A stretch of DNA of 49,989 bases from a virus: positions 1 to 49,989 of the IMG/VR virus record IMGVR_UViG_2199352024_000001; one strand, written 5' to 3'. Position numbers and translations under genes: made by a program. Under the pieces are notes generated by a model. It was not told the DNA's origin. It ran no database searches and saw only the letters and a list, made by a program, of their open reading frames with translations. Shown here one piece after another: positions 5,455 through 23,260 of the stretch. How positions within the stretch are numbered: position 1 is the stretch's first letter; each line of letters begins with the position of its first letter.

Positions 5455-5873
5455 CGCTTCTTCTTCCTGCGCCTTCTTATGGGGCGCTTTTCAGGGACAA
5501 ACCAACCAGTATGCCCTGCGTCTAAGTAACGTCCAGCCCTGTAGAAGATTTCTGGATCAACCCGTCTTCCGATAACGTAACGGTTGCAGTGGATGCACAG
5601 AAGCCCCCTGATCTCGCCGGTTCGATGATTATGGTCAACCGCGAGTTTGGTTTTGAACTCCGTATGCGGCCTGAGACATACTCCGCAATTTCCGTTTTGT
5701 TTGGAAAGTAATTGAAGGTATTGTTCTTCACCAATGCCGTAGAACCTTTGTAAGTGTCTCTCTCTGGCCGAAGTTTTCTTGCTTGGGCAAAGTCGTCGTA
5801 CATTTCGTCTAGAAGTTTGTCTCGGATGCTGCCCATTAATCTTCCTGCGCTTCTTCGAGTGTGATTTCGTCAA
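5451..5873 (-). CDS. Recombination endonuclease VII-like nuclease (start uncertain)
   Basis: Up to 140 residues. The core C-G-V-C, L-A-V-D-H-N-H-R-T-G-E-I-R-G-L-L-C and I-H-C-N is the zinc-bound His-Me-finger nuclease of the T4 endonuclease VII family, which resolves branched DNA before packaging. The Arg-rich ends are expected for a DNA-junction enzyme. The only canonical start in this frame is a TTG inside the upstream gene with no ribosome site. An ATG at 5836 with AGGA and a TAATG junction lies in a different frame, giving M-G-S-I-R-D-K-L-L-D-E. Either the TTG is used, or a -1 shift or sequence error near 5780 joins the two frames. Confidence 0.8.
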   Translation of the reverse strand: MTKSHSKKRRKINGQHPRQTSRRNVRRLCPSKKTSARERHLQRFYGIGEEQYLQLLSKQNGNCGVCLRPHTEFKTKLAVDHNHRTGEIRGLLCIHCNRYVIGRRVDPEIFYRAGRYLDAGHTGWFVPEKRPIRRRRKKKR

Positions 5874-6693: not shown

Positions 6694-6707
6694 TATACTT
6701 CCTTAAA

Positions 6708-6782
6708 TGGAGCCGCTGCTAGGAGTCGAACCTAGACCTCAAAGATACAAACCTCTTATGCTACCGTTAACACCACAGCGGC
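6708..6782 (-). tRNA. tRNA-Thr (anticodon UGU)
   Basis: A cloverleaf folds on the minus strand. It has a 7-bp acceptor stem (GCCGCTG with CAGCGGC), a D arm with two G-U pairs, an anticodon loop TTTGTAT giving UGU, a perfect 5-bp T stem (CTAGG/CCTAG) around TTCGACT, discriminator U and an encoded CCA. G1-C72, C2-G71, G35 and U36 are threonine identity elements. The anticodon stem is weak, with two G-U pairs and one mismatch. It sits between the ssDNA-binding and Cas4-like genes. Confidence 0.85.
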
Positions 6783-6788
6783 TAACCA

Positions 6789-7190
6789 TTACACCGGCAA
6801 CTCAGACTTGCCAGCTTCATCCTTCTTAGGTTCGTACACGATTAGATTAGTCACAACGATACTGTCTACAACACTCCGGGCGTTAGGCCCGTGGGCACTC
6901 TCAAACGTCTCTACAGTCAGTTTAAGGACGACACTAGAGCCGTTACCAACCATAGCCGTAATCGGGTTACCGGCTTCATCAGTAACTACGAACTTGTCCC
7001 CACCCGTTTTAAACGTGTAGTGCAAGCCGGAGTCGTCTTCTTTCATCTTGTTCTTAATGCCGCTTTCACGGACCTGAGAACGCACAGTACCATCAGCGGG
7101 GTAGAAATTCACAGTGTAATTACCCCATTGGTTAGGCTTCGACCGGAGCCAACTAACCGTGCCTTTAAGGAAATAATCTTTGGTAGCCAT
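6789..7190 (-). CDS. Putative single-stranded DNA-binding protein
   Basis: A 133-residue protein with a predicted beta-rich, OB-fold-like pattern: F-L-K-G-T-V-S-W near the start, N-F-Y-P-A-D-G, and alternating hydrophobic strands through K-L-T-V-E-T-F. The tail is acidic (K-K-D-E-A-G-K-S-E), as in phage SSBs that recruit partners. The position next to DNA polymerase and recombination nucleases supports this role. AGGA lies six bases before the ATG. Assignment is by pattern and context. Confidence 0.6.
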   Translation of the reverse strand: MATKDYFLKGTVSWLRSKPNQWGNYTVNFYPADGTVRSQVRESGIKNKMKEDDSGLHYTFKTGGDKFVVTDEAGNPITAMVGNGSSVVLKLTVETFESAHGPNARSVVDSIVVTNLIVYEPKKDEAGKSELPV

Positions 7191-7226
7191 TGTCTGTCCT
7201 ATCTTCGCCAGTTTATCTGGCTGATC

Positions 7227-7448
7227 TTAGTTGAGGGTGGTAGGTTTAACCGAAGCTGAAAGGTTTTCAGTATCTTCAACTTCTTCATCTACTTCCGTAA
7301 TACTTGTAATAACCGGCTTGTTAACCGTCTTCAACATCTGCAAAGCACCTGTGCCAGCAGCATCTTGGTCTTCCGCCACGATATGTAGGAACGCCCGATC
7401 CGTGTACTCGAAGTCAACTCTAAATGCTTTCAACTTTAGTTCCTTCAC
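7227..7448 (-). CDS. Small acidic protein, unknown function
   Basis: A 73-residue frame from a GTG that overlaps the upstream gene by 29 bases. A TTG at 7433 with GGA seven bases upstream is a better-supported start and would give 68 residues. The first half has a beta-alpha-like pattern (A-F-R-V-D-F-E-Y, A-F-L-H-I-V-A-E-D) like small ferredoxin-type folds. The end is acidic and disordered. Not recognised. Confidence 0.6.
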   Translation of the reverse strand: MKELKLKAFRVDFEYTDRAFLHIVAEDQDAAGTGALQMLKTVNKPVITSITEVDEEVEDTENLSASVKPTTLN

Positions 7449-7695
7449 CTTTTAACCACTTGATATAGTCCGAGGCTGCTTGATTAGCGTCTTGAGCAGA
7501 AATATACGGCCCGATAAAATGACTTGTTTCATCATGAAAAAACCATCCCCGCTGCATTGGATAGCTCTGGTCATTCCCTTCGTACCAGAAGTCTCGAAAG
7601 AAATGGAGCAAGTCCTTGTGTTCCAGACCAATTAGTTGGGGTTCATCAATCAAAACAGCTTCATCCATTCGAAAGTCTATGATATGGGCTTTCAA
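7420..7695 (-). CDS. Hypothetical protein, 91 residues
   Basis: A 91-residue frame starting with TTG in a TTGA overlap with the DNA polymerase stop; no ATG is available. It is rich in aromatic residues (L-L-H-F-F-R-D-F-W-Y, R-G-W-F-F-H) and ends in a helical segment. Its fixed place after the polymerase suggests a replication-linked accessory. No family recognised. Confidence 0.6.
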   Translation of the reverse strand: MKAHIIDFRMDEAVLIDEPQLIGLEHKDLLHFFRDFWYEGNDQSYPMQRGWFFHDETSHFIGPYISAQDANQAASDYIKWLKGEGTKVESI

Positions 7696-9692
7696 TGAGT
7701 AACCATCCAGTTGTCTCCTATGGCAAGTCTGCCATGAGCATTAAGGATGCTACCAGCCATAGGGCAACGAAGCTTAAGATCGACACCCACTTGTCTAATA
7801 GCATCCGCTTGAGTTTCAGCAATGTACTTAGCTACGTCCATATCGTTGATTGTTTCAGTCTGCCATTCATCGTGGACGAAGTTAACCCACCAGAACGGTA
7901 CCTTCTCTTTAATCAGCTTGGGGTACCAAATCTGGACGGCTCGCTTCATAATGACGGCTTCTCCATTTTGGAGATAACCAGCTAAGGCAAGGTGTTTCTT
8001 TTGGTTTGTGTCCTCGCCAAAGATACGCACGTACCGGCCATCGAAGCCTTGGAAGTACCCCCGCTCTGCGTCAACCGGGGCTACCTTATCCTTAATATAC
8101 CTTAATCCGGGGTATCTGTCAAGGAAATTCGTGTCAGCTTCCTTAGCTTCTTCTTTTGAGCATACAAGGATATGCGCAACTTGTCCAAGTCCGGCCCCGA
8201 GCAGCCACGCATAGATAAAAGTCTTAGCATCGTCTCTTGACTTGCAAGGAGGGCCGAGAGCGTTTCGATTAACTGAGTGTGGGTCTGTCCCATCTTCTTT
8301 GTTTCCTGATACTAGACTGGCTGTGAACTCTGCATCATCGATGTAGTGGGCAAGGATGCGAAGCTGGATGCTCTCAGCGTCGACCCCAACGAGCAACCTA
8401 CCCTTCCCTGCCTTCCACAGACTTCGCATTTCATCGGAGTAGGGTGTAGTCTCAGGGCGCTTTTCGTTGTATTTAGGAACGTTGCCCATATTGGGTCGGT
8501 CGTGAGACATACGGTGGGTCCAAGCACCGATATGGTTAAAGCTGCCATGTATCCTCCATTCTGGAGTATAGTCTTTCTCTGGGACACCCCCTAAAGGCTC
8601 AGAGACGGGCCGTGAGGCGTTTATCCACTGTTGGAGGGTGGAACTACGGCTAGCCAGCAAAAGCCTACGGGCGAGCTTTCTAGAACCTTCCGGTGCGTCA
8701 GGGGGGAGAGTGGCTAGATTGCCTTCTGATACAGTCCAGCCGTATACGAGATATTTCTTGAGCCTTTCCTCTAGGCTTTTGATTGCTTCGTGGTCTTCTG
8801 TGCCTTTACGGCGCTTCCTTCGTAGTTGATTTAACTCCCTTTCAGCTTCTTTGTGTCCTTTTGTCTTTTCGTAGGGCTTCCAGCCAGCTTCATTGAGCCT
8901 TTCGACACGTTGAGGGGCACTAGCTGGATTGAAGGACACATACTCGATTAAACTAAACGGGGCGTCTATCGTGTAGGGGGAGAAGTCTGGACCAAGGACA
9001 CGGGGTATTGATTGTTTGTTTATAGTCCCATGCTTGGTACCACGTGGTATCACGTGTTTAACTAAAGATACCTTTGGTAAGAATATATCCTTTAGTACCT
9101 TGTCTATTCTTAGTAGTTCTGTATCTATAGTATCCTTTAGAAGAATACTCTTAGGGTAATCAAAGGCAAAGCCATTCTGCGACAAAGTGTCACAGTGGTG
9201 TGCTATGAAGTGTTCTGTGGCAATGGCGTCTTGCCACGTAGGACTTAGGAGATACTTCCTAAAGTGATTATACAATAGGAAGTTAATCTCTACGTCACTT
9301 AAACACCTTTCCTCTAATTCCTTTGTGTACTGACTCCAATCCTCTATGTCTGCGTGTTGCTTCCTGTGTCCGAAGTGCTCTCCCCAGCTTTCAAGGGAGT
9401 GACCCGTAGGGCGATCTGCGTCAATAAGGCGACTAAGGACAAGGGTATCGCAGATACGAATAGGATCAATAGGAATACCAAGGAGACGGGAAATCGTAGG
9501 CCCGTCAAAGCTGATAAAGTTGTGTCCGATCCAAAGATCAATACCTTGTGCGTACTGTCGGAAAGCAGCGAGTGAAGCTTCTTCAAAAGGGTGGAAAACA
9601 TTGACTGTTCCTTTTTCTATTTCTTTACAAACAATAACCCAAATTTGGGTAGCGTTAAGGCCGTCTGTTTCTATGTCACAAATAACGTCCAA
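7692..9692 (-). CDS. T7-like family A DNA polymerase with 3'-5' exonuclease
   Basis: A 666-residue polymerase, close to T7 gp5 (704). The N-terminal exonuclease carries D-I-E-T-D-G-L (ExoI), N-F-I-S-F-D-G (ExoII) and a later Y-x-x-x-D segment. The polymerase part has motif A (D-A-E-S-I-Q-L-R-I-L-A), motif B (K-T-F-I-Y-A-W-L-L-G-A-G) and motif C (V-H-D-E-W). All catalytic Asp residues and the motif B Lys are present. The start is TTG, six bases after AGAGG. An upstream sigma70-like promoter gives this replication gene its own transcript. It probably uses host thioredoxin or acts alone; no processivity factor is visible. Confidence 0.95.
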   Translation of the reverse strand: MDVICDIETDGLNATQIWVIVCKEIEKGTVNVFHPFEEASLAAFRQYAQGIDLWIGHNFISFDGPTISRLLGIPIDPIRICDTLVLSRLIDADRPTGHSLESWGEHFGHRKQHADIEDWSQYTKELEERCLSDVEINFLLYNHFRKYLLSPTWQDAIATEHFIAHHCDTLSQNGFAFDYPKSILLKDTIDTELLRIDKVLKDIFLPKVSLVKHVIPRGTKHGTINKQSIPRVLGPDFSPYTIDAPFSLIEYVSFNPASAPQRVERLNEAGWKPYEKTKGHKEAERELNQLRRKRRKGTEDHEAIKSLEERLKKYLVYGWTVSEGNLATLPPDAPEGSRKLARRLLLASRSSTLQQWINASRPVSEPLGGVPEKDYTPEWRIHGSFNHIGAWTHRMSHDRPNMGNVPKYNEKRPETTPYSDEMRSLWKAGKGRLLVGVDAESIQLRILAHYIDDAEFTASLVSGNKEDGTDPHSVNRNALGPPCKSRDDAKTFIYAWLLGAGLGQVAHILVCSKEEAKEADTNFLDRYPGLRYIKDKVAPVDAERGYFQGFDGRYVRIFGEDTNQKKHLALAGYLQNGEAVIMKRAVQIWYPKLIKEKVPFWWVNFVHDEWQTETINDMDVAKYIAETQADAIRQVGVDLKLRCPMAGSILNAHGRLAIGDNWMVTH

Positions 9693-9724
9693 CGTGTACC
9701 TCTAGGTAGGTTAATCCTACTCTT

Positions 9725-9753
9725 AGTATCTCATAGATTGAGATTTTTGTCAA
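9725..9753 (-). promoter_or_regulatory. Sigma70-like promoter for the DNA polymerase operon
   Basis: On the minus strand a perfect TTGACA (9748-9753) is followed after 17 bases by GATACT (9725-9730), which matches four of six -10 positions. Start of transcription would fall near 9718, about 25 bases before the TTG start of the polymerase gene. The -35 overlaps the stop of the preceding small gene. Confidence 0.7.
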
Positions 9754-9908
9754 TCCCAATACTTCATACTGTACCAGTTAAACTGCCACCACAACCAACC
9801 AGCAAAATTTAAGTAGACCGCCCTTTGCCCGGGTGGTGGACAAGTCTCGTCTAGTAAAGAACTTTTCCAAGGAAGCCATTGGAATTTTGGAGAAATCTGG
9901 TATTTCAT
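9750..9908 (-). CDS. Small Trp-rich protein of 52 residues
   Basis: A 52-codon frame with an ATGA overlap to the upstream gene. It is notable for aromatic content: F-Q-W-L-P-W in the first third and a cluster A-G-W-L-W-W-Q-F-N-W-Y near the C-terminus. It could bind a membrane surface or a protein groove. Its stop lies within the -35 hexamer of the polymerase promoter. Not recognised. Confidence 0.6.
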   Translation of the reverse strand: MKYQISPKFQWLPWKSSLLDETCPPPGQRAVYLNFAGWLWWQFNWYSMKYWD

Positions 9909-10117
9909 CTTGTAGAACCGTACTTATCTCGCCAGTGCTGCTCCATTTCCCGTGCGGTGGAAAGCTCGGAGCGGAGGCGGGAGATTTCGTCGGCGGCTTC
10001 TTTAAATGCATTGCCCAAACAGTTGTCCGCATGAGTAGAATATTCTGGAAACGCCTCTTTCCCGCAGTCGCAAAAGTCGTTCTGCCTTTTCGACAGCATT
10101 TCAACAATATCACTCAT
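9905..10117 (-). CDS. Small coiled-coil protein with Cys/His motif
   Basis: A 70-residue frame. C-D-C near residues 16-18 and H-A-D-N-C near 29-33 could form a zinc site. The second half (A-A-D-E-I-S-R-L-R-S-E-L) is a typical short coiled coil seen in many small phage proteins of unknown function. Coupled to its neighbours by ATGA on both sides. Confidence 0.65.
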   Translation of the reverse strand: MSDIVEMLSKRQNDFCDCGKEAFPEYSTHADNCLGNAFKEAADEISRLRSELSTAREMEQHWRDKYGSTR

Positions 10118-10458
10118 TTCCTCCTCCCATACTTGTCATAGAGAGACTTGTCATAGAGAGATTGGAGGGTGCGGGCCTGTTGATCGAAGCTGCCGCCAGC
10201 AAGGAACACGTCACACAGAGTGGCTGATATTTCATTCTCACTCGGTCCCACCCCCTGTGAGGAAATGGCGAGGGAGGCGATCTGCGCTTCCAGCAGTCTA
10301 ATTTTATGGTCACGCCGTCCGATGGACCGATGCGCCGCGCAGATATAGCAGAGGCCGAACACGCGGAACTTTTCCGGTACGTCGCTGTCGTTGCATATTC
10401 CGCAGGACCAAGCCTCTGTCGGCTCTACCGGTACTAATTGGGAGGGGGAGGAAGTCAT
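10114..10458 (-). CDS. Hypothetical protein with zinc-finger-like N-terminus
   Basis: A 114-residue frame. The N-terminus has C-G-I-C and C-Y-I-C spaced about 20 residues apart, consistent with a small zinc ribbon, followed by a helix and a low-complexity linker. The C-terminus contains the duplicated peptide S-L-Y-D-K, encoded by a perfect 15-bp tandem repeat. The ATG overlaps the previous stop and the stop overlaps the next ATG. Confidence 0.65.
   Translation of the reverse strand: MTSSPSQLVPVEPTEAWSCGICNDSDVPEKFRVFGLCYICAAHRSIGRRDHKIRLLEAQIASLAISSQGVGPSENEISATLCDVFLAGGSFDQQARTLQSLYDKSLYDKYGRRK
10131..10160. repeat. Perfect 15-bp tandem duplication inside a gene
   Basis: The unit ACTTGTCATAGAGAG occurs twice head to tail. 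Being a multiple of three it keeps the frame and duplicates S-L-Y-D-K near the protein C-terminus. It looks like recent slippage. Confidence 0.95.
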
Positions 10459-11692: not shown

Positions 11693-12351
11693 CAGATTGT
11701 CACTGTCCGGATACTCGGCTGACGCCGACGACCAGCTTGTTCGGTAAAGTCTGTGCGAGTGCTGTGCTTATACTCGATAATGTCATCCGCAGGCAGCTTT
11801 GCACGATTGGAGTTTTCCTTAACTTTAGCCACAGATTTGACTTCGGGCCTCTCAGCTTCGATCTCAGCTTTGACCTTAACGGTTTCAGCTTTAACCCATG
11901 CAGCGATAGCTTTACTGTCGTGTGCCCACACATACACCTTGATCGGGTTTCGGCTATTCGGGTTTACTCGTGGTGTCGGCGTCTCAATGACTTCACCTAA
12001 ATTATGCTCCCGGATCAGCCGTGTAAAGGTTTCCCCGTTTGATGCTGCTCCGAAACAAACGGGATCAGAGTACACGTAGAAAGCACAACTCCGTTTCTGC
12101 GCGCTATTTCGGAGCTGCTCCGCCGTTTGAGGTTCCAAGTGTCCGGTTTGATGGTTTGCGATGTGCGATTGAACCACTGGAGCAAGAAAACTCTCCATGA
12201 CCCGGAAGAACCCACGTTTCTGTATGAACTCCAAACTACGCTCCAAGTACTGGCCGTGTGGTTTTACATCTTCTTCCTTAAGCCAAGTTTGCAACCCTAG
12301 TCCACTGAGTTCATGGACTCCGCAAGAAACGACACTAAAAAACTTATTCAT
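11692..12351 (-). CDS. SCGV-family paralogue C, long form
   Basis: A 219-residue protein. The N-terminal part has V-S-C-G-V-H-E-L. After an insertion of about 60 residues come F-Y-V-Y-S-D, L-I-R-E-H-N-L-G-E-V-I-E-T and I-K-V-Y-V-W, the pattern shared with paralogues A and B. The last 70 residues are charged and rich in Lys, Glu, Ala and Arg, a likely disordered or coiled extension. It follows the primase-helicase with an ATGA overlap, which suggests early expression. Function unknown. Confidence 0.7.
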   Translation of the reverse strand: MNKFFSVVSCGVHELSGLGLQTWLKEEDVKPHGQYLERSLEFIQKRGFFRVMESFLAPVVQSHIANHQTGHLEPQTAEQLRNSAQKRSCAFYVYSDPVCFGAASNGETFTRLIREHNLGEVIETPTPRVNPNSRNPIKVYVWAHDSKAIAAWVKAETVKVKAEIEAERPEVKSVAKVKENSNRAKLPADDIIEYKHSTRTDFTEQAGRRRQPSIRTVTI

Positions 12352-13874
12352 GTAGGTAAGTCTCCGTTGATTTCTGATAACACAGACGTTGCCGGGTCAT
12401 AGATAAATCTGCCAGCCGGTCCCGTTTTCCACGACTGACGGTTTTTGAAGATCGTAGCGTAAATTACCCGTCGGAGGTACTCGTTATCCGACTTGAGATT
12501 GCGTTTCAGGTTGACCCAAACATCGAAGACCTTGCTGATGTTATGGCTACCACGGGTTTGTTCGTTGTCATTTTCGTGACTTATAACAACGAGAACAAAC
12601 CGTAATTCTTTAGCTAACATAACCAGCCGTGTACTAAGCCAGTCGAGTTCTTTGGTTGCGCTGTCTTGCATTCTCCCTGTAGTAAGAACCGTGATATTAT
12701 CTAGGAAGATATACTTACATTGGCAAGCTGCAACGAGGAACCTGATTTTTGAAAGAATAACGTCAGGTTCTTCGGAGCCATAGTGCTCAAGAAAATGGAT
12801 GCGGTCTTCCCTTCCAGCAACCTTTCTAAACGCCGCCTTGATCTCTTCAATTGAAATGTTACTGTCGTCAGCATGGGCTGGAACTCGGAGTTCATATCCG
12901 GCTTGCTTTTTGATCGTGTCTTCGGTTGGTTCCTCGAAGTGTAGGATACCGATGTTGGCGTCAGGGTCATTCTTCGCAAGATGGAACTCTGTTGCGTGAA
13001 ACAACTCGGTTTTACCGATACCTTCAAGGCCAGATATGAGGTAGGCTCTGCCACGTTTCAGTCCTCCTGTTAATGCGGTAAGGGTGGGGAAAGGCCAAGA
13101 TACTCCAGGTTCTTTGGAAGCACGATCAAGGATGCCGTCGATATCGGAAAATGAACTCTTGATCCCTTCCGGAAGAAATCGCCCGGCGTTGTACCAGCTA
13201 TTTCGGAACTCTGTGATTTTTCCGGCTTCCAAGAAATCATGGGCGTCTTTGTACGGCGCGAGTTTGACATGGTACACCTTTTGAAAGCCAAAAATAGCAG
13301 CTAGCTCTTGAGTAGCTTTTTTACCGGGGTTGTCATTGTCTAACGCAAGATAGATTTTCTCAAACGAGTTAAGCTTATCAAAATCTCGGCGTACATCTGC
13401 GACAGCAGAAGTCGCTGACCTGACCGAATAAACCGGATATCGTCCGAGCATTTGCCACACCGACATAGCATCGTCTTCACCTTCCGTGATAGTAATAGCT
13501 TTTGCGGACCCCGCTGGGAACTTCTCAGCAGCCCACCCCGAAGCCTCCGACATTGCCCCACGGCTAAAGAAACCTTTAGGATTAAGAGTTCTGACTTTGG
13601 TAGACCCGTTAGCATAAGGGTATGCTACAGAGACAGGAACACCTTTGTCGTTAATCTGGGTTAGAACACCAAAGAACTCATGGGTTTCTTTGGTGATCCC
13701 ACGGCGAGGTAGGTACTCATACGTATACGTTGTATCTTCTGACAACTCATTCCCTTTCTTTCCGAAGGGTTTATTACACGAAAAACAAAAACCTACCCCA
13801 TCCTTGTCTATGGAGTAAGCATCGGTACTAGGACACTCAGGACAAGGCAGATGGGTCTGGACCCATTTACTCAT
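12348..13874 (-). CDS. T7 gp4-like DNA primase-helicase
   Basis: A 508-residue fusion. An N-terminal zinc ribbon (C-P-E-C then C-F-S-C within residues 10-35) precedes a TOPRIM primase core with I-T-E-G-E-D-D-A and L-A-L-D-N-D. The DnaB-type helicase follows, with Walker A S-G-L-E-G-I-G-K-T-E near residue 285 and Walker B Y-I-F-L-D-N. Close in size to T7 gp4A (566). It would unwind DNA and prime synthesis for the family A polymerase encoded 3 kb downstream. It starts next to a small zinc protein gene and overlaps paralogue C by ATGA. Confidence 0.95.
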   Translation of the reverse strand: MSKWVQTHLPCPECPSTDAYSIDKDGVGFCFSCNKPFGKKGNELSEDTTYTYEYLPRRGITKETHEFFGVLTQINDKGVPVSVAYPYANGSTKVRTLNPKGFFSRGAMSEASGWAAEKFPAGSAKAITITEGEDDAMSVWQMLGRYPVYSVRSATSAVADVRRDFDKLNSFEKIYLALDNDNPGKKATQELAAIFGFQKVYHVKLAPYKDAHDFLEAGKITEFRNSWYNAGRFLPEGIKSSFSDIDGILDRASKEPGVSWPFPTLTALTGGLKRGRAYLISGLEGIGKTELFHATEFHLAKNDPDANIGILHFEEPTEDTIKKQAGYELRVPAHADDSNISIEEIKAAFRKVAGREDRIHFLEHYGSEEPDVILSKIRFLVAACQCKYIFLDNITVLTTGRMQDSATKELDWLSTRLVMLAKELRFVLVVISHENDNEQTRGSHNISKVFDVWVNLKRNLKSDNEYLRRVIYATIFKNRQSWKTGPAGRFIYDPATSVLSEINGDLPT

Positions 13875-14061
13875 TCTTAGCTGGCTCGTCTTCTGCGGCG
13901 TAATCAGCCAACGTCATTCCGACGGCTGCTAGACAAACATCGCAGTACTCGTTAGGGCCGTGTCTCCGAACTCTGCCGTTATGGCCGGGGCCTACGCCCC
14001 CGATGCTTGAGCCTTCGGCTTCGGAGTAGTCACAGATAACGCAACGGTCATGTTTTGCCAT
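13867..14061 (-). CDS. Small zinc-finger-like protein, 64 residues
   Basis: A 64-residue frame with C-V-I-C near residues 7-10 and C-D-V-C near 40-43 flanking a Gly-rich loop, a likely single zinc site. The C-terminus is acidic. It lies between the ATP-grasp gene and the primase-helicase, overlapping the start of the latter by 8 bases. Probably an adaptor or regulator; not recognised. Confidence 0.65.
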   Translation of the reverse strand: MAKHDRCVICDYSEAEGSSIGGVGPGHNGRVRRHGPNEYCDVCLAAVGMTLADYAAEDEPAKNE

Positions 14062-14080: not shown

Positions 14081-14839
14081 TTAAGTTCTGGCGCGGATAG
14101 CTTCTACTACCTTTGCTTGATTGGCTTCGATGTACAGCGACGGACAAGCGTTTAGTTCCAAGACCACGGCTTGATGCTCAGCCTTAGAACTATACAAGAT
14201 ATCAGCAGCAACAATATGTGCAGCCCGAACAACGGGGCAAGCCACAAGGCGGGGAACAACATCAATACCATTCCCAGACAGCTTGCATCGAGGAATATCG
14301 TTAATAGTCTGAAAAAATGAACCATTGTGGTGTCCCCATGGTTGGGTGTAATCGACGCCTTCTCCCGGCTTTTTCCGCAGCCAAATCAAGGGGTTGCCAA
14401 AAACGAATATGACTCGGTACTCTCGTCGCTTAGCGTAGAGTTCCGAAATATACTCCGTTCCGGGAGCGAAGTCAAGTCTGTCATTTGTAACTCTGTAGCC
14501 GACGCCTCGGGAATGTCGAAGGGGTCTAACGACAAACTCGGTCCCTGTAAGAGTTCGAGCCGCTTCTGCGTCTGCCGCCAAGCGAGGAACTGGGATGCCG
14601 TGGCTTTCAAGTGTCTTACGTTGTCCATACTTATTCCTTGTCAAGAAGTTGTACAGCGTTCCGTAGCCAGCAGGAGCGTCTGTGACATGCTGCGGAGCCA
14701 CAGGCGTCATAAAAAAGTCACGCCGGTAAGAGAACGGGCGGGAGTGTTTCGGATTAGGGTAGAACCTAGTTTGCCCACCCAGAGCCATAGCCAACGAATG
14801 CGGCGTTCCTCGAATACCTTTCGGTCTTACGACAAACAT
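14081..14839 (-). CDS. ATP-grasp ligase of the amidoligase operon
   Basis: A 252-residue ATP-grasp enzyme. Visible elements are F-V-V-R-P-L-R-H-S-R-G-V-G-Y (nucleotide-binding strand and loop), Y-I-S-E-L-Y-A-K-R-R-E-Y-R-V-I-F-V-F-G, and V-V-L-E-L-N-A-C-P-S-L near residues 228-238 with metal-binding Glu and Asn. The family joins a carboxylate to an amine through an acyl-phosphate. It is the last gene of the operon, coupled by TAATG to the second cyclotransferase. In amidoligase operons described by Iyer, Aravind and colleagues, ATP-grasp proteins are expected to extend the amide product. Substrate unknown. Confidence 0.8.
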   Translation of the reverse strand: MFVVRPKGIRGTPHSLAMALGGQTRFYPNPKHSRPFSYRRDFFMTPVAPQHVTDAPAGYGTLYNFLTRNKYGQRKTLESHGIPVPRLAADAEAARTLTGTEFVVRPLRHSRGVGYRVTNDRLDFAPGTEYISELYAKRREYRVIFVFGNPLIWLRKKPGEGVDYTQPWGHHNGSFFQTINDIPRCKLSGNGIDVVPRLVACPVVRAAHIVAADILYSSKAEHQAVVLELNACPSLYIEANQAKVVEAIRART

Positions 14840-15429
14840 TACGATGATCCTTTCAACACAGCATCGTCGTCACATTTACGCCATGAGTAATATGGTTTAC
14901 TTTCAGGTAAGTCGATCACAGGCTGGAGTTCGAGGTAAGCGTTATCCATTTCTCGCACCCGTGGAGTAGCCTCGTACATGAAGCAATCCGTGACAAAAAA
15001 TTGCTTATCCTTCTTGTCTTTCACGGCTTTACTAAAGTACTGAATTACCCGCTTCCTCCGAGTATGGAAGAAACCATTTTGGAACCATCCGTCAAGGTTC
15101 GGAAGGTTCTCTACCTTCATGCTCCAGACTTCACCTTGGACACGGGCGGACCTAGGGTCTGCTGGACTGCTCAGAACAACAGGCTGGCCTTCCTTCTTAT
15201 GTTTGTACATCAAGAATGTTGGGTTGGTCGTAAACCCGTAGCCGACAAGCTTGGAGTCCCTCAAGATCAGATGATCTTGGAACTTGCCTTTCTCTGTACC
15301 ATAAATAAAGACTGGCACAGTCTCGAATTTGTATTGTAGCTCAACGAGATCAGGCGAGTAAACATTATCTTCGAGCCTGCACTTCAAGAATGAAGACAGA
15401 CTTATGGGAAACCGAGTAGCCACGGGCAT
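14839..15429 (-). CDS. Gamma-glutamylcyclotransferase-like protein 2
   Basis: A 196-residue protein with the AIG2/GGCT-fold signature V-P-V-F-I-Y-G-T-E-K-G near residues 38-48, then L-V-G-Y-G-F-T-T, and V-Q-G-E-V-W-S-M-K. Such proteins release gamma-glutamyl groups as 5-oxoproline or trim isopeptide-type bonds. It is longer than the other copy and has an extra N-terminal region. Coupled to the class II amidotransferase upstream and the ATP-grasp gene downstream by TAATG junctions. Confidence 0.75.
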   Translation of the reverse strand: MPVATRFPISLSSFLKCRLEDNVYSPDLVELQYKFETVPVFIYGTEKGKFQDHLILRDSKLVGYGFTTNPTFLMYKHKKEGQPVVLSSPADPRSARVQGEVWSMKVENLPNLDGWFQNGFFHTRRKRVIQYFSKAVKDKKDKQFFVTDCFMYEATPRVREMDNAYLELQPVIDLPESKPYYSWRKCDDDAVLKGSS

Positions 15430-16607
15430 TACATTGCCCTCGGGTGCTTCGGAGCCTCACTGAATTTAATAAGCTCTTTGCACCGCTGCAATTCAGCAGC
15501 CATGTCAACGAAACATTCCGCCATAGCCAACGGGAAGTTATCACACAAATCGGTGAAATCTTCTTTCGACAACCTCAAAACTTCTGAGATATCCTTGATC
15601 CCTGCAAGAGTTGCGAAAGACATTCTGTCCTTGTCGAGCTTAAGCAGGACACCGGTAGCAGCTTTTGTCATACTTTTCTCCGTTAGCTTCCATTTTTCTT
15701 TAAGTGTGTCTGAGACACGTTTGATCTCGTACCGCCGACGTTCTGGCGATGCTAGTCTGTCGCTGCCAGCATTGGGTCGCTGGAGTTCATCTTGCTCAGC
15801 GATCAATTTACACTGGGTGTCGTACTTATCCCACTCAGCCCAGATTTCTTTGTCTTGTGGAGTTATAATTGGGGTCCTAGAGACCGGCAGAAGCGCACCG
15901 CCGCCGTGGTTACGAACATACGGCGCAGAGGTCTGAAAGAGTTTATTCGGATCATCGTCATACCATGGGTCTTTTCGGGCGTAAGTCCTAATCGAAGACC
16001 GTTGATGGTTTGTATTGAACGAATAATCGTTACTCGCCCAATAGCCGTCGAACTCCTTACCTCTTTCTCCGTTAACCCGGATTACGTTTCCTTGGTTGTC
16101 AAAAAGAAGCAAGACTGACCAACCAAGGAAACTCTTATGAACGAGTTTGCTAAAGAATGCATCCTTGAGAAGATTAACTCCAGAGTGCTTAACCATCCTC
16201 TCGGCCAGCGGTATTAAGAACGTTTCGTTGTACCAATGAGTATCCGATATCCCCATGGTTTCAACAAGCTTAGCCGGGGGTTGGTACTCGTACATCGTAC
16301 CGTTGTGCATCATACACAGATCAAGACCGTCGGCCCCTTTAAGGGTGACAAACGGGTGGGAGTTAGCCTCGTTGATCTTACCGACCGTGGCGTGTCTTAG
16401 ATGCAAGAAAACCCTGTGTTTATTATACTTCTTGAGCTTCTTGGCGATTTCGTCAGGGTCGTTTTTCTCCGAAATCTTCCTTTCGATCTTGAGACGGCCT
16501 TTGTCGATAAAAGCTAGACCGTAACCGTGCTTGTTGATGTCACAAGCTGTTTCAAACGCATCGTCCGGGATCGTAGCACCGGGCTGAATATCCAGAATAA
16601 CGCACAT
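15429..16607 (-). CDS. Class II glutamine amidotransferase 2
   Basis: A 392-residue protein. The correct start is the ATG at 16607 in a TAATG overlap, because it places Cys at position 2, the N-terminal nucleophile of Ntn-type glutamine amidotransferases after Met removal. Other active-site elements are L-R-H-A-T-V-G and M-M-H-N-G-T-M. The C-terminal 180 residues are charged and helical with no domain I recognise. The glutaminase domain would supply ammonia or cleave gamma-glutamyl amides. It pairs with the amidoligase encoded just upstream. Confidence 0.85.
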   Translation of the reverse strand: MCVILDIQPGATIPDDAFETACDINKHGYGLAFIDKGRLKIERKISEKNDPDEIAKKLKKYNKHRVFLHLRHATVGKINEANSHPFVTLKGADGLDLCMMHNGTMYEYQPPAKLVETMGISDTHWYNETFLIPLAERMVKHSGVNLLKDAFFSKLVHKSFLGWSVLLLFDNQGNVIRVNGERGKEFDGYWASNDYSFNTNHQRSSIRTYARKDPWYDDDPNKLFQTSAPYVRNHGGGALLPVSRTPIITPQDKEIWAEWDKYDTQCKLIAEQDELQRPNAGSDRLASPERRRYEIKRVSDTLKEKWKLTEKSMTKAATGVLLKLDKDRMSFATLAGIKDISEVLRLSKEDFTDLCDNFPLAMAECFVDMAAELQRCKELIKFSEAPKHPRAM

Positions 16608-17644
16608 TATCGTGCCCTCACAGTGCGGAGACGGAGTTGTAAATCTGCCCATTGATCCCTTCCGGGATCAGCAAAGTTCACCTGAGGTTCATCGCGTACC
16701 TCCCACTCTGCTGCTTCGTCGATAGTGTCGATGTACGGTTTTTTACTTCTGGGCTTGGCTTTCTTTTCATGCCAGTCGAAGACAGGTTTCGCTGCTCTAT
16801 AAATCTCGTAAGCACCTTCAACACCTTTTCGGATCAATTCTTCTACGTCATTCGGACGAACAGCCGCAGCAATACCTCCGGGATGATCTGTAAAAATATC
16901 CCAAGCGAGAGACGCAGGATATTTCCAAACGTAATCGATCAACGATTTATACGTCTCATCTTGGCACTGTTCGGCTTTGTTGCGGATATTCGTGACCCAA
17001 GACGCCCAACGCATGATAGTATCCGGATCAGTACTTACCGGGAAACACCGAATTTCGACTGACCCAAACGTTTGCAGCGGGTCACTGTTCAACGCGGCGT
17101 ACTTGCCTCTTGAACCCCAGTGTGGGCTTTTTAAGGTTAAATGTTGCGCCCATCCGGCAACCGTACTCGGCATATCTCCGGTTTCAAAGTTCGGAAGGCA
17201 AAAGAGATTGCCATTCCGCTCAGGACCGCACAACCGGACAAGCACTGGCTCAATCATTGAGTACACAATAAAATACCCAAGAATAGACCTCAGTGATTGC
17301 TGTTGCATGTTAACGTGAATGTGCGTACTAGCTCTTGATACAAGCCGGACTTCTACGTTCTTTTCCCGCAGAGCCGCTGATAACGTATTCAGCCGTGTCC
17401 TGAGTGTCTGTAATGATACAGCACCACGGGTGACGTATTCCCGTGGAGTGTCAGGAGCGTTGTCATTAGGATGCACGGCGCGTCCATTAAGACCACGTAG
17501 AGAGTTCTCGGCTTTAGTTACCCATCCTTGAATTTCAATAGGCAAATTGGTGCCTTCGAGTTCGATTTCGACACCAACATCGCCGGTTTGTTTCGGAGGT
17601 TGCCAGAAATCTCTGGCAGTAAGAGACAGAATAGGATGAAGCAT
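16607..17644 (-). CDS. Putative amidoligase (Amidoligase_2 type)
   Basis: A 345-residue protein of the COOH-NH2 ligase superfamily, related to glutamate-cysteine ligase and glutamine synthetase. Signs are G-V-E-I-E-L-E-G near residues 24-31 (metal-binding Glu), the strand S-T-H-I-H-V-N-M and the following helix ending C-G-P-E-R-N-G. I place the start at ATG 17644 in a TGATG overlap; a GTG one codon earlier is less likely. The family forms amide bonds between carboxylates and amines using ATP. Coupled to the unknown 266-residue gene upstream and the amidotransferase downstream. Confidence 0.8.
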   Translation of the reverse strand: MLHPILSLTARDFWQPPKQTGDVGVEIELEGTNLPIEIQGWVTKAENSLRGLNGRAVHPNDNAPDTPREYVTRGAVSLQTLRTRLNTLSAALREKNVEVRLVSRASTHIHVNMQQQSLRSILGYFIVYSMIEPVLVRLCGPERNGNLFCLPNFETGDMPSTVAGWAQHLTLKSPHWGSRGKYAALNSDPLQTFGSVEIRCFPVSTDPDTIMRWASWVTNIRNKAEQCQDETYKSLIDYVWKYPASLAWDIFTDHPGGIAAAVRPNDVEELIRKGVEGAYEIYRAAKPVFDWHEKKAKPRSKKPYIDTIDEAAEWEVRDEPQVNFADPGRDQWADLQLRLRTVRAR

Positions 17645-18444
17645 CACACCGTCTTCATTTCACAGCCCACGATTTGCAGATCATTCTTGATCCACGGCTT
17701 ATCGTAATCTTCGTTGTCGACAATGACGACGTTACCTTCAAGGGTGCCGAGGAAACGCCCACGGTACTCGACCTTAAGGATATCATCGTCGTCCCGGTAC
17801 ACCGCAGTGTCCGAAGACAACCGAAGCGCCCGAAACACACGGAGTTTCGTCATTAAGTCGGCGTACTGGATATTCCACGGGCAAGCGTCGATTTTCTTCA
17901 TAGCCCGCATTAAACCACGATTACCGTTGAACGTCCGATACTGCTCTTCTCCGACACGTTTGATAGCACAATTGCTGTGAGACACCCCTTGCTGCTGCTG
18001 TCTCGTTGGTTTACGAGTGAAGTACACCGGGAAATCATCGAGAGTGACATACTGCGGCTCAGGTGTGCGCAGGTCGATACCCGGCGTCGAAAAATACTCA
18101 ACCCGAAAACTCCTGCCTTGATCGTCCTCGATAATCAACCACTGTTCTGCCTCGACTTGGCGGATATCCCGGACGTAGTACAATTCCGGACCAATCCAGA
18201 TCAACGTTCCTTGCAACCGGAGCCGTATATCAGCCCCAGTTTCGTAAGGCATTTTGAACTTAGGCTGCATCCACCGCCGTTTATGTTGTACGTCGGGAAC
18301 ATCAAGAACCTTGATCTTAGCCACCCGTATCTTCGAGGACGCGAGTTCAAACATCTGCCGTTCTTCGTCATTACCGACACGGCCAGTTTCGTTAACGTGG
18401 GCTAGTAATGCTTCTTCCGCAGGAGTAACCGTCCAGCCGGGCAT
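17644..18444 (-). CDS. Unknown 266-residue protein between the two amidoligases
   Basis: A 266-residue protein with no family I recognise. The first 60 residues are helical and charged. The middle is rich in beta-strand patterns (L-R-L-Q-G-T-L-I-W-I-G, then Y-V-T-L-D-D-F-P-V-Y-F), and the end is another strand-rich stretch (V-E-Y-R-G-R-F-L-G). It lacks obvious catalytic motifs. Translational coupling on both sides (TAATG and TGATG) places it stoichiometrically with both amidoligases. It could be the protein substrate, a carrier or a subunit of the ligase complex. Confidence 0.75.
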   Translation of the reverse strand: MPGWTVTPAEEALLAHVNETGRVGNDEERQMFELASSKIRVAKIKVLDVPDVQHKRRWMQPKFKMPYETGADIRLRLQGTLIWIGPELYYVRDIRQVEAEQWLIIEDDQGRSFRVEYFSTPGIDLRTPEPQYVTLDDFPVYFTRKPTRQQQQGVSHSNCAIKRVGEEQYRTFNGNRGLMRAMKKIDACPWNIQYADLMTKLRVFRALRLSSDTAVYRDDDDILKVEYRGRFLGTLEGNVVIVDNEDYDKPWIKNDLQIVGCEMKTV

Positions 18445-19268
18445 TAGGTAAGTCCCTCAAGAAGCAGATCAGCTAGCTTAGGCCGTTCATTCCGCCAGTT
18501 AAAACGGTCGTTTGAGTTAATCGCGTCCTTGGCGGTATTGCCAAATTCAAGGAACAAGCTATGTCCTTGGAAGTATTCTTTCGTCGCCTTCACGGCTTTG
18601 TCGAAGACAAAACCAGTGTGCTTTGGACTGGCACACCATGGATTGCCAAGGACACGGTACTCAAGGCCGTAAGACTTTGGCCTAAACGCACCGGCTTTGC
18701 CGTATAACCGACGCCGAAGTGGATCAGGCTCCCATAACAACGAAGGCAGACCAAGGTAGTAGTCAAGTTCTTTGACGATACCAAAGCAATGGCCCATATG
18801 CACGGGATTACGGATATTCGCGTTCTCCGTCCACCCAATATGAATATGCCCGGCACCAGTACGAACATGAGACGCCACGGTGCCGCTCGGGATATCGTTT
18901 AACTTACGCTCGTAGGCATTGTAATCAGGCTCACACCCAAGGGCGCGGGCCTCAAACGGCAATGCTTCAAGCTTTTGCTTGCCGAAGAAGACAGCGTTCT
19001 TCGGGATGATTTCACACTGTTTATCCTCTTTATGGACAAACTCCCTAAGGTCGTCGATAACCCCTTTGACGTTAGTAACGAATTCGAGTTTGTTTTTCGC
19101 AGGGCGGACGTTGCACTCCAAGGCGACACCATCGACTTGAATAAAGCCATGTTTTGTCTCCATGGGATTTACCTTGGTACCGCACTTAAAACCATGTCCA
19201 GAAATCCAGTGTCCATTTCGCTTGACAAAGAACTCCGGGTCTGCACCAACCGTGACCGTGATAGTCAT
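18444..19268 (-). CDS. Phage-type COOH-NH2 amidoligase
   Basis: A 274-residue protein of the phiEco32/phage-type COOH-NH2 ligase group. Landmarks are V-G-A-D-P-E-F-F-V-K near residues 7-16, Q-V-D-G-V-A-L-E-C-N-V-R-P-A near 44-57, and G-A-G-H-I-H-I-G-W near 138-146, matching the metal and ATP-binding acidic residues and His of glutamate-cysteine-ligase-like enzymes. It differs from the other amidoligase in this operon, so it probably joins a different pair of substrates. Overlaps the amidotransferase stop by ATGA. Confidence 0.85.
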   Translation of the reverse strand: MTITVTVGADPEFFVKRNGHWISGHGFKCGTKVNPMETKHGFIQVDGVALECNVRPAKNKLEFVTNVKGVIDDLREFVHKEDKQCEIIPKNAVFFGKQKLEALPFEARALGCEPDYNAYERKLNDIPSGTVASHVRTGAGHIHIGWTENANIRNPVHMGHCFGIVKELDYYLGLPSLLWEPDPLRRRLYGKAGAFRPKSYGLEYRVLGNPWCASPKHTGFVFDKAVKATKEYFQGHSLFLEFGNTAKDAINSNDRFNWRNERPKLADLLLEGLT

Positions 19269-20320
19269 TGTCCTCTCTTTATATTTCCAGCGTTGATACT
19301 CGCGTTTGCGTATTGCTGCGCAAACCCGTCATTTTTGTAACAAAATTCGCAGACAAATTCTGTCCGATTAGTCCAAATAAGTCTACCGTAATCGGTCATG
19401 CTCTGTGGTTTATCACAAATAACACAACCATGGTACAGGACATCTTGTAGCTCAGATAACGTCACAGTCTGACCGGCGAAAGTCATCATGTGAACGTGCT
19501 CTTTGTCTTCCGGTAGCTCAACGTCCGGCAAGGGGACATTAAGTGCCCGCTGTACTGCTTCGTTAAGCTGTTGTGCTGGAATGGGGACTACAGGAACACT
19601 TGTTGGTTTTTCTAGTTGCCTGTAAGACGCGGCTCTGAGCTTGCCGCCGGGAGGGTAAATACTGTATGTTATCAACGTATTAGGCTTCAACTGAGCCAAA
19701 GCGAGTTTTTCGTCAAGGACACGCTCAAACGAATACTGGAGCATTTCCTTTTCGGAACACCACCACAGAGTTGTTTGCTTTCCTTCGATATACGCGAAGT
19801 ATAAGTCTCGCTGTTCGTTGCGAAGGAAGTTAATTTGGCTCTTAGTTCTGTCTAGCCACACAAGAGCGTAACTACCTTTGACGCCTTTGATAGCCTCGTC
19901 GATGCCTTTTTCAGCAATACTTTTAAATAAGAGTTGACTGTCGCTTTGGTCTTTATCGACTTTTTTACCATCGACTTCGGTAAGTGTACCGTTGTGCATC
20001 CCGACGATATGCCCGCACGTATGGGGGTGGCAATCTCCGAGATCGTTACTTCCTCTCGTCGTTGCTCTAGAATGCCCCATCCACAACGACGTATGGTTCT
20101 TAGCGTGCTTCTCCATATCGGCGTAAGCTTGAGAGTACGCTATCGTCGAAGCTAGTTCCGTGCTTCGGAAGACTTTAATCTCCTTGGCTTTCTTTTGAGG
20201 AACATTGACAAGACCACAACCGTCGCTACCCCGGAGCGTAGACATAAAGAAAAGGTGTCTAAACACTTCTGTTTCCGGGCCAGTCAACCAGTCAGATAGA
20301 GCGCCAGTAAGACCACACAT
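19265..20320 (-). CDS. Class II glutamine amidotransferase 1 with C-terminal zinc ribbon
   Basis: A 351-residue protein. The start at ATG 20320 gives M-C-G-L-T-G, placing the Ntn nucleophile Cys at position 2; a longer frame from 20341 would bury it. The active site is completed by L-R-G-S-D-G-C-G, G-H-S-R-A-T-T-R-G and M-H-N-G-T-L. The C-terminus adds C-V-I-C and C-E-F-C, a zinc ribbon absent from the second copy. It resembles the glutaminase domain of PurF/AsnB. It may deliver ammonia or a gamma-glutamyl group to the adjacent amidoligase. Confidence 0.85.
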   Translation of the reverse strand: MCGLTGALSDWLTGPETEVFRHLFFMSTLRGSDGCGLVNVPQKKAKEIKVFRSTELASTIAYSQAYADMEKHAKNHTSLWMGHSRATTRGSNDLGDCHPHTCGHIVGMHNGTLTEVDGKKVDKDQSDSQLLFKSIAEKGIDEAIKGVKGSYALVWLDRTKSQINFLRNEQRDLYFAYIEGKQTTLWWCSEKEMLQYSFERVLDEKLALAQLKPNTLITYSIYPPGGKLRAASYRQLEKPTSVPVVPIPAQQLNEAVQRALNVPLPDVELPEDKEHVHMMTFAGQTVTLSELQDVLYHGCVICDKPQSMTDYGRLIWTNRTEFVCEFCYKNDGFAQQYANASINAGNIKRGQ

Positions 20321-20493
20321 TATGCGCTCACGATGCTCCAAGCTGGCGGCGTCAACTCGTTATTCATATCGAGGAACTCGTGGTGCCGGAGATACGCGTA
20401 CACCATGTTAGGTACGTGGAACAAAGCTTGCGTCTTGTCCGCCGCAAACGCGGCAAGCCAATCACGCATTTCAATCATAGTTGGAGTGTCCAT
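20320..20493 (-). CDS. Small protein of 57 residues in the amidoligase operon
   Basis: A 57-codon frame between cyclotransferase 1 and amidotransferase 1, with a TGATG junction at its start and a TAATG junction at its end. It reads as a short helical domain (M-I-E-M-R-D-W-L-A-A-F) followed by a Tyr/His segment. The tight coupling in an operon of enzymes suggests an accessory subunit or carrier peptide. Not recognised. Confidence 0.65.
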   Translation of the reverse strand: MDTPTMIEMRDWLAAFAADKTQALFHVPNMVYAYLRHHEFLDMNNELTPPAWSIVSA

Positions 20494-20873
20494 CACTGTC
20501 CCCAGTTATATTGTCCGTCCGCAACCGGGACGGCGTGAAGATGGGCTACGTGTCCGCGCCAGAAGTTTTCGACGCCAATGTACGCCAAACACACAGTCGG
20601 GACACCTTGAACCATAACAGTCGTAGCCTCACGATTGTACATAACACCGTTACTTTCCAACCTGTCCAACCGTGATAGTGTGTTCGTGTCAACCTCATAG
20701 ACTTCTCCTGAGGCTTGGGCTTCGTTACCTCGTAACAGGACTGGAAACCCTCCTGAGAGCATCCAGAAGCGATCTTGTGTGACTCCGTTGCCAACGAAGC
20801 GACTATTACAAAGAAGGCCGTTGTTGCCGTGGCCTTTCTTCAATGTCCCGTAGACGAAGACTAGGTGTTTCAT
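20493..20873 (-). CDS. Gamma-glutamylcyclotransferase-like protein 1
   Basis: A 126-residue protein from ATG 20873, which overlaps the preceding stop (ATGA). H-L-V-F-V-Y-G-T-L-K-K-G at the N-terminus is the AIG2/GGCT phosphate-binding-like loop; A-S-G-E-V-Y-E-V-D and L-D-R-L-E follow, with the E of the latter segment close to the usual catalytic Glu. The size is typical of gamma-glutamylamine cyclotransferases. It would release 5-oxoproline from a gamma-glutamyl amide, either trimming or recycling the amidoligase product. Confidence 0.8.
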   Translation of the reverse strand: MKHLVFVYGTLKKGHGNNGLLCNSRFVGNGVTQDRFWMLSGGFPVLLRGNEAQASGEVYEVDTNTLSRLDRLESNGVMYNREATTVMVQGVPTVCLAYIGVENFWRGHVAHLHAVPVADGQYNWGQ

Positions 20874-21028
20874 GAAGCTTCTACCTCCCTGACTATGGTT
20901 GTCCATTCAGGCGCTCTTTCCCCCAAATACTTCACCCTGTCACGGTGGGCTTCTTTGAAGGTGTCAAATGGACCCATGACTTCGATCATGTTAACAAGAT
21001 TAAGCCAGTAATACCTGCGCTTAGCCAA
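20870..21028 (-). CDS. Small protein of 52 residues, TTG start
   Basis: A 52-codon frame starting with TTG inside the stop region of the upstream 235-residue gene and ending in an ATGA overlap with cyclotransferase 1. Sequence A-K-R-R-Y-Y-W-L-N-L-V-N then F-D-T-F-K-E-A-H-R-D-R reads like a compact alpha/beta fragment. Part of the coupled operon; role unknown. Confidence 0.6.
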   Translation of the reverse strand: MAKRRYYWLNLVNMIEVMGPFDTFKEAHRDRVKYLGERAPEWTTIVREVEAS

Positions 21029-21728
21029 TGCCGTAGCCTTCCGTGAGATTGACTTGTTTCAACGCAATAACCCCCGGTGTCTTTTTTGCCCAAGCTTGGG
21101 CTTGTTCTTCGGTCTTAACCGAAGCCGCAGCCAGCAGAAAGTTCTTTCCAGCGTGAAGGCCGATCCACCGGGATACAACAACGGGTTTGAGCGGTGCCAG
21201 AGGGACGTTAATCAAATTAAGAGAGTGGTCGCTCCAGTCGTGTGCCCAATGTTGTCCGTTAATTGTCCAAGAAGTAATAGTATTGCCTACCACACCTACC
21301 ACTGGATAGGCACCCAAGGGACCATTGGTACACAGGATACGTACTGGCTGCCCGTCCCGTGTCTGGACAGGCTTGGTCAGGTCGAGTTTGGGCTGTTCTT
21401 GGGCAATCCAAGCCATGCACTTGGCGAACGAATTACCGCCAGTCTCGTCGCCGACGATCCAATTATCACCGTCTTCGCCAATGACTTTCAGGAACTTAGT
21501 CCAGTGAGACAGCCTGACGCTACCGCCTACTCTGACTTTCGCAGCCTTGTGGGCGATGGGTTCAGCGACAAATCTGGAAGCGGAGCATAAAACGTCTCCC
21601 CGCCTACCTTGTACTAGGATACATTGTTTATAGCTTTCCAGAACCTTGTAGACACTGTATAGTTCTAGGTCCAAAAAACGAAATCCTTCGTTTCTGACAC
21701 AGCGTACCAAACTACCTTTCGCGAACAT
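21021..21728 (-). CDS. Hypothetical protein heading the amidoligase operon
   Basis: A 235-residue protein from ATG 21728, chosen because GGAGG lies five bases upstream; an earlier ATG would place this ribosome site inside the gene. The N-terminal 100 residues look like two small beta-barrel (SH3-like) units. The middle has D-L-T-K-P-V-Q-T-R-D-G-Q-P-V-R-I-L, a repeat-like domain common in phage proteins of unknown function. The palindromic site at 21739-21754 sits immediately upstream of the ribosome site, so it could control the whole downstream operon. Confidence 0.7.
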   Translation of the reverse strand: MFAKGSLVRCVRNEGFRFLDLELYSVYKVLESYKQCILVQGRRGDVLCSASRFVAEPIAHKAAKVRVGGSVRLSHWTKFLKVIGEDGDNWIVGDETGGNSFAKCMAWIAQEQPKLDLTKPVQTRDGQPVRILCTNGPLGAYPVVGVVGNTITSWTINGQHWAHDWSDHSLNLINVPLAPLKPVVVSRWIGLHAGKNFLLAAASVKTEEQAQAWAKKTPGVIALKQVNLTEGYGIG

Positions 21729-21738
21729 ATTTACCTCC

Positions 21739-21754
21739 ATCTAAAACATTAGAT
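21739..21754 (-). promoter_or_regulatory. Palindromic site 1 (ATCTAA-N4-TTAGAT)
   Basis: ATCTAAAACATTAGAT: perfect 6-bp arms around four bases. It overlaps the sequence just upstream of the ribosome site of the amidoligase operon. On the minus strand it is preceded by AAATCA-like bases, as at sites 2 and 3. Confidence 0.7.
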
Positions 21755-22653: not shown

Positions 22654-22687
22654 AAAAAACCCCCACTGTCCGTTAAGACAGCAGGGG
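22654..22687 (-). terminator. Rho-independent terminator (leftward)
   Basis: On the minus strand a stem of CCCC plus CTGTC pairs with GACAG plus GGGG around a small asymmetric bulge, with loop TTAACG, followed by six T. It lies just after palindromic site 2 and ends the transcript of the 106-residue gene. Confidence 0.85.
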
Positions 22688-22691
22688 CTAA

Positions 22692-23171: not shown

Positions 23172-23198
23172 AAAATAAAAGCCCGCGAAATGCGGGCT
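23172..23198 (-). terminator. Leftward terminator A after the GC-rich gene
   Basis: A 7-bp stem (AGCCCGC with GCGGGCT) and a five-base loop, followed on the minus strand by TTTTATTTTG. Second of two consecutive terminators. Confidence 0.85.
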
Positions 23199-23212
23199 AA
23201 GAAACACAAAAG

Positions 23213-23236
23213 AAAAGGGCCGGTGTTACCCGGCCC
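23213..23236 (-). terminator. Leftward terminator B after the GC-rich gene
   Basis: A 7-bp stem (GGGCCGG with CCGGCCC) and a six-base loop, followed on the minus strand by TTTTCTTTTG. Lies 25 bases after the stop of the 278-residue gene, so that gene is closed off by two terminators. Confidence 0.85.
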
Positions 23237-23260
23237 TAATCCTAGGTATGGTCGGTAGGC

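Follow-up and report, generated by a model that had tools for sequence, protein, structure and literature searches.

A gene cassette built around amidoligases, carried by hundreds of phages whose hosts are important Gram-negative bacteria, is named the "peptidoglycan modification cassette" and credited to Iyer et al. (2009) and Hardies et al. (2013) in later papers (PMC5498523, PMC6256558, PMC11945000, PMC10580990). The 2009 prediction of the cassette by Iyer et al. is taken here as later papers relay it, and modification of host peptidoglycan is a published conjecture about its role (PMC6256558, PMC5498523, PMC10580990). Here we analyze an operon in a 49,989-base virus record, IMG/VR IMGVR_UViG_2199352024_000001, positions 1-49,989; we call this whole stretch the window. 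It comes from a podovirus-type phage whose terminase is nearest to those of Celeribacter phage P12053L, Lentibacter phages, and the Zobellviridae phages MEP401 and MEP402 (56-58%). An initial description made from the letters alone (the sequence-only reading) placed the operon among the amidoligase-centered phage operons of Iyer, Aravind, and colleagues and stated that no experimental product is known. Both points hold: the operon matches the cassette as compared across 96 loci, and we found no report of the cassette product in the open-access literature. The same description held that the operon is duplicated. We find instead that it is a variant of the widespread cassette, neither duplicated nor new in kind, and that its only real additions are a second class II glutamine amidotransferase (GAT), GAT-B, and a protein of the gamma-glutamyl cyclotransferase (GGCT) fold, GGCT-2, which form one linked two-gene unit.

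A query with the phiEco32-type COOH-NH2 ligase type 2 (LIG2) returned 310 GenBank phage records, and we examined 96 loci with iterated profiles. LIG2 is present in 95 of the 96, a count that is not independent because the loci were retrieved through LIG2 itself; Amidoligase_2 (AMID) is found in 94, a conserved protein that we call U in 93, and an ATP-grasp ligase in 91, and nearly all loci have a class II GAT. The recurrent order is GAT, LIG2, U, AMID, and ATP-grasp, followed by a primase/helicase. Genomes of the phiEco32-like and LUZ24-like groups have the same gene set, with the GAT after AMID in the latter. In the window, PF14395 and PF12224 both score above the Pfam cutoff with their invariant motifs kept, and a RimK-like ATP-grasp, a class II GAT with N-terminal Cys, a U protein, and a gamma-glutamyl-cleaving enzyme are all present. 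Because LIG2 and AMID occur in 95 and 94 of the loci, two amidoligases are the normal complement of the cassette. The 266-residue protein, earlier described as an unknown, is likewise no peculiarity of this phage: it is the U protein, extended at its N terminus (U266; E = 1.3e-38 against the family profile), a core member of the cassette.

Both amidoligases retain their invariant motifs in alignments (D-P-E, GHxH, and ExR in LIG2; ExExE, HxH, and ExR in AMID), so that active-site loss, which the sequence-only reading had named as grounds for abandoning it, is not seen at the sequence level. The two match different families in both Pfam and phrog, and both families occur almost solely in phages, as judged from a scan of 84,980 genomes. 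That scan, made for cellular operons, gave 13 matches, all in metagenome-assembled genomes; most of these carry several further cassette genes and are phage-like, and the cellular operons therefore give no clue to the substrate. The window's ATP-grasp has no Pfam match, fits its own family profile at E = 4.5e-37, and keeps every residue that is invariant across 33 relatives (N64, K70, E140, R142, K156, D213, E228, and N230). The profile matches RimK structures, with RimK-type alpha-L-glutamate ligases as the best (3.7e-12). Three cassettes (L074, L080, and L092) carry two ATP-grasp paralogues, one preceding the GAT and the other following AMID, and the lone ATP-grasp of the window resembles the type found elsewhere before the GAT. 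Second copies near the cassette were also seen for LIG2 (L059 and L115) and for the hydrolase C26 (L013). The crAss-like phage cr108_1 (L120) carries a type-2 ligase together with ATP-grasp, amidotransferase, and GAT genes at 4682-10268; parts of the cassette thus extend far beyond the Zobellviridae and the phiEco32 and LUZ24 groups.

Two class II GATs with Cys at position 2 are present, as had been described, and both GAT-A and GAT-B keep Cys2, the HxRxxT arginine, HNG, and SD; GAT-B is not, however, a copy of GAT-A. In a tree of 98 GAT domains, GAT-B groups with the proteins of phages phiM6 and RHph_N3_19, locus L073, and MEP402 (support 100/99), apart from GAT-A. The branches are long, and for this reason we restrict our claim to the separateness of this clade, which would make GAT-B an old lineage of its own and not a recent copy. 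The paired GATs are thus not each other's closest relatives, and a recent duplication of the operon is ruled out by this tree together with the assignment of LIG2 and AMID to different families. Neither GAT-B nor GGCT-2 of the window, used alone to scan viral contigs, returned anything; an alignment search gave eight GAT-B loci, one of which (L111) is the same contig as L073. The C terminus of GAT-A (window about 19265-19400, minus strand) bears a CxxC...CxxC motif that could bind zinc, and a similar pattern occurs in the 64-residue protein encoded downstream of the ATP-grasp.

In every GAT-B locus found apart from MEP402, 11 in all (the window, L015, L016, L073, L110, and L112-L117), GGCT-2 comes directly after GAT-B. 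MEP402 stands apart, with a single GAT of the GAT-B clade and no GGCT-2. The model of GGCT-2 has the GGCT/GGACT fold (Z of 14-15 to GGACT structures; Foldseek 5e-7 to 3jud), and the GGCT profile matches GGACT/YtfP. For the comparison of active sites, the human GGACT reference was entered by hand and matches the PDB chain over residues 3-95. The catalytic Glu of the LDxxE motif is kept in 32 of 32 GGCT-1 proteins and absent from 3 of 11 GGCT-2 proteins: it is Phe in the window (LDGWFQ), Met in L112 and L115, and Glu in the other eight. The YGTL loop is altered in 9 of the 11, reading YGTE in the window, whereas all GGCT-1 proteins that show the loop have YGTL or YGSL. The window's GGCT-1 has both the Glu (LDRLES) and an intact YGTL loop. 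Two GGCT-like proteins are therefore present in the sense that both match PF06094, and the second lacks its catalytic residue. We read GGCT-2 as a degenerate subfamily whose member in the window is probably noncatalytic. What has been added is a single unit of two genes, one of whose products is probably noncatalytic, and the earlier proposal that most components are paired, as if two amide-forming steps ran in series or on two substrates, is therefore unsupported. We also considered a further possibility, in which GAT-B and GGCT-2 are obligate partners: the GGCT-fold protein, its cyclotransferase activity lost in part or in full, would bind the substrate or guide ammonia as a subunit of the class II GAT that feeds a phage amidoligase. 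This would be an undescribed type of amidotransferase complex, and we regard the idea as speculative and rather unlikely as it stands.

The distribution of cleaving enzymes bears on the chemistry. Most relatives carry C26, a class I GAT-like hydrolase whose profile matches PuuD and related hydrolases, directly upstream of the GAT; the window record lacks it. Among the 51 whole records, a 41.7-kb contig is the only one with no gamma-glutamyl-cleaving enzyme (C26 or GGCT), and the other 50 have at least one. With that contig left out, GGCT occurs in 5/5 records that lack C26, against 19/45 of the others (Fisher P = 0.02; 0.07 with the contig), a pattern that weakly fits a gamma-glutamyl bond in need of cleavage. 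Other records carry part of the cassette. MEP402 has only AMID and a GAT and is without LIG2, C26, and GGCT, and the 47.7-kb record L110 has ATP-grasp, AMID, GAT-B, and GGCT-2 and is without LIG2 and C26. The smallest unit is AMID plus a GAT, and the two records suggest that an amidation arm is able to stand alone.

Taken together, these observations led us to propose that the cassette has two arms, for amide and for gamma-glutamyl chemistry, which act on a peptide-like acceptor in the cytosol, perhaps a murein precursor; we put the probability of this reading at roughly 0.4. In the amidation arm, the class II GATs would hydrolyze glutamine and AMID would form an amide with the released ammonia (or an amine), and a free carboxylate would receive an amino acid (probably glutamate) through the RimK-like ATP-grasp. 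LIG2 would belong to the gamma-glutamyl arm and make a gamma-glutamyl-type amide, which the cleaving enzyme (C26 in most relatives, GGCT-1 here) would trim or remove. GAT-B and GGCT-2 may act as one complex feeding AMID, with GGCT-2 probably binding or positioning a gamma-glutamyl substrate instead of cleaving it, and U266 may recognize the target. The likeliest acceptor would be the murein peptide precursor, with altered host wall growth or later infections as the outcome; murein was among the targets listed by the sequence-only reading and is also the conjectured target in the literature (PMC6256558, PMC5498523). Mutations in evolved isolates of the Bruynoghevirus FJK may be relevant: two isolates have missense changes, at differing positions, in amidoligase gp22 and GAT gp23, and are also changed in structural genes, including one that bears a transglycosylase (PMC11450229). 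These changes link the amidoligase to the GAT and perhaps also to the cell wall.

Several considerations weigh against this proposal. We infer all of the cassette's chemistry, and a sequence search for solved relatives of LIG2 and AMID found none. Nothing in the sequence favors murein over a protein or a soluble metabolite. The split into two arms is drawn from the gene content of few records, the complementarity of C26 and GGCT is weak, and its statistics ignore kinship. The hosts named among the listed rows are all Gram-negative, which we count in favor of the proposal but which may reflect just which phage lineages were sampled. The FJK isolates came out of a selection for biofilm killing and host range, which makes their mutations anecdotal (PMC11450229).

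Three candidate acceptors remain: a murein precursor, a soluble metabolite, and a protein. For the second, LIG2 and AMID would gamma-glutamylate a host amine such as a polyamine, the GATs would amidate it, and C26 or GGCT-1 would release the product, in the manner of the Puu pathway or of the protecting-group step of butirosin synthesis. The likeness of C26 to PuuD and related hydrolases, the likeness of GGCT-1 to gamma-glutamylamine cyclotransferase, and the presence of bond-forming and bond-cleaving enzymes in one operon all point this way; yet LIG2 and AMID belong to nearly phage-only families that are not that of PuuA, and to our knowledge the Puu pathway involves no RimK-like ATP-grasp, class II GAT, or conserved nonenzymatic protein. 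We consider a soluble product possible and somewhat doubtful. No better placed is modification of a host or phage protein, by which the RimK-like ligase and the amidoligases would add amino acids or amides and so redirect translation, transcription, or virion assembly. Among solved structures, the RimK-type ligases of ribosomal protein S6 are nearest to the ATP-grasp, and the cassette is located among replication genes. U266 may also hold a first barrel that is perhaps SH3-like, a common protein- and RNA-binding fold, on weak structural likeness. Its model (pLDDT 87) matches proteins of other phages, including one of CW02 that lies in the cassette, and against the PDB gives a best Foldseek E of 0.016 and a best VIA Z of 4.8 on residues 66-175, with no confident match and with Tudor, KOW, and EF-P-like barrels all scoring below Z = 5. 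The gamma-glutamyl hydrolase arm would have no obvious role in such a scheme, however, and we know of no such mark from virion proteomics of relatives. In hypermodification of DNA, the cassette would build an amide-bearing base that shields phage DNA, an idea that might be suggested by the primase/helicase and DNA polymerase genes that adjoin it in most genomes. This is very improbable because Rembedalsseter, which has a canonical cassette, showed only nicks and no modification motif when native and amplified DNA were compared by Nanopore (PMC11780129), and also given that DNA of phage tf, with the same ligase, was cut by HaeIII and sequenced natively (PMC3517423) and that no base-synthesis gene was recognized among the scanned window proteins, although the DNA data come from other phages and not from the window phage itself.

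All genes listed in the earlier description are open frames on the minus strand within 14081-21740, with families matched by Pfam or profiles (Table 1). Its near-universal gene coupling is also borne out: the real starts are probably 20320 (GAT-A), 16607 (GAT-B), and 20873 (GGCT-1), all later than the longest-frame starts, and with them the junctions from GGCT-1 to ATP-grasp (20873 to 14839) are short stop-start overlaps of the ATGA, GTGA, and TAATG types.

Table 1. Features of the cassette region in the window
Feature	Coordinates	Strand	Description	Basis
Terminator-like hairpin	22658..22689	-	14-pair stem and T tail, upstream of the run	consensus match only
239-residue protein	21021..21740	-	first gene of the coupled run	open frame
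52-residue protein	20870..21028	-	small protein; overlaps neighbors	open frame
GGCT-1	20493..20873	-	GGACT/YtfP-like gamma-glutamyl(amine) cyclotransferase	Pfam PF06094, 1.9e-21
58-residue protein	20320..20496	-	small protein	open frame
GAT-A	19265..20320	-	class II glutamine amidotransferase (Cys2), core GAT of the cassette	Pfam PF13522, 8.7e-13
LIG2	18444..19268	-	phiEco32-type COOH-NH2 ligase type 2	PF14395, 1.9e-9; phrog_3815
U266	17644..18444	-	cassette core protein with N-terminal extension	family profile, model
AMID	16607..17647	-	Amidoligase_2	PF12224, 2e-7; phrog_7469
GAT-B	15429..16607	-	second class II glutamine amidotransferase, separate clade	Pfam PF13230, 2.7e-9
GGCT-2	14839..15429	-	GGCT-fold partner of GAT-B	Pfam PF06094, 7.1e-8
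ATP-grasp	14081..14839	-	ATP-grasp ligase, RimK-like family	family profile
64-residue protein	13867..14061	-	CxxC pairs; between ATP-grasp and primase/helicase	open frame
Primase/helicase	12348..13874	-	DNA primase/helicase, usual downstream neighbor of the cassette	phrog_239

The 239-residue protein gave no match in the Pfam scan, and short homologues of it lie near the cassette in L019, L021, and L068. Three strong terminator-like hairpins occur upstream of the operon within 600 bases (23180-23237 and 22658-22689, minus strand), and promoter matches in the operon region number 17 against 12.2 expected by chance, which is near chance. Rfam over the window found one tRNA and no riboswitch; the tRNA gene (6708-6782, minus strand) is also called by ARAGORN, with its anticodon unresolved. 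Elsewhere in the window, a gene for a DNA polymerase exonuclease subunit (4714-5454, minus strand; phrog_403) is separate from the DNA polymerase gene (7692-9692, minus strand), and genes for endonuclease VII (5451-5873) and a Cas4-like exonuclease (5836-6693) lie near it.

The comparison of loci narrows the tests that are worth making: existing Nanopore data disfavor DNA modification, the two proposed arms can be tried apart, the U protein is a real core part, and the extra GAT comes with a possibly noncatalytic GGCT partner. The BASEL phage Bas92 (PQ850610), whose recorded host is E. coli, carries the cassette, so the question is directly testable in laboratory strains.

Among known systems, the Puu polyamine pathway (PuuA and PuuD) is alike in that a glutamine-synthetase-like ligase is paired with a C26 enzyme that hydrolyzes gamma-glutamyl amides, and differs in its ligase family and in having no class II GAT, RimK-like ligase, or U protein. 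The cassettes of phages phiEco32, LUZ24, PA11, CW02, RIO-1, and PSA-HP1 share the type-2 COOH-NH2 ligase, U protein, Amidoligase_2, RimK-like ATP-grasp, and class II GAT, usually with GGCT or C26 and adjoining a primase/helicase; the window differs in its extra GAT-B/GGCT-2 pair and in its lack of C26, which is also missing from LUZ24 and phiEco32. Sinorhizobium phage phiM6 and Rhizobium phage RHph_N3_19 have two GATs, two GGCTs, the same ligases, an ATP-grasp, and a U homologue, with GGCT-2 directly after GAT-B. Their proteins are only about 20-40% identical to those of the window, both retain C26 and the GGCT-2 Glu, and the ATP-grasp precedes GAT-B. Locus L073 (IMGVR_UViG_3300048929_000021) retains C26 and an intact GGCT-2 and has its LIG2 upstream of C26, but its local order of AMID, GAT-B, GGCT-2, and ATP-grasp is that of the window.

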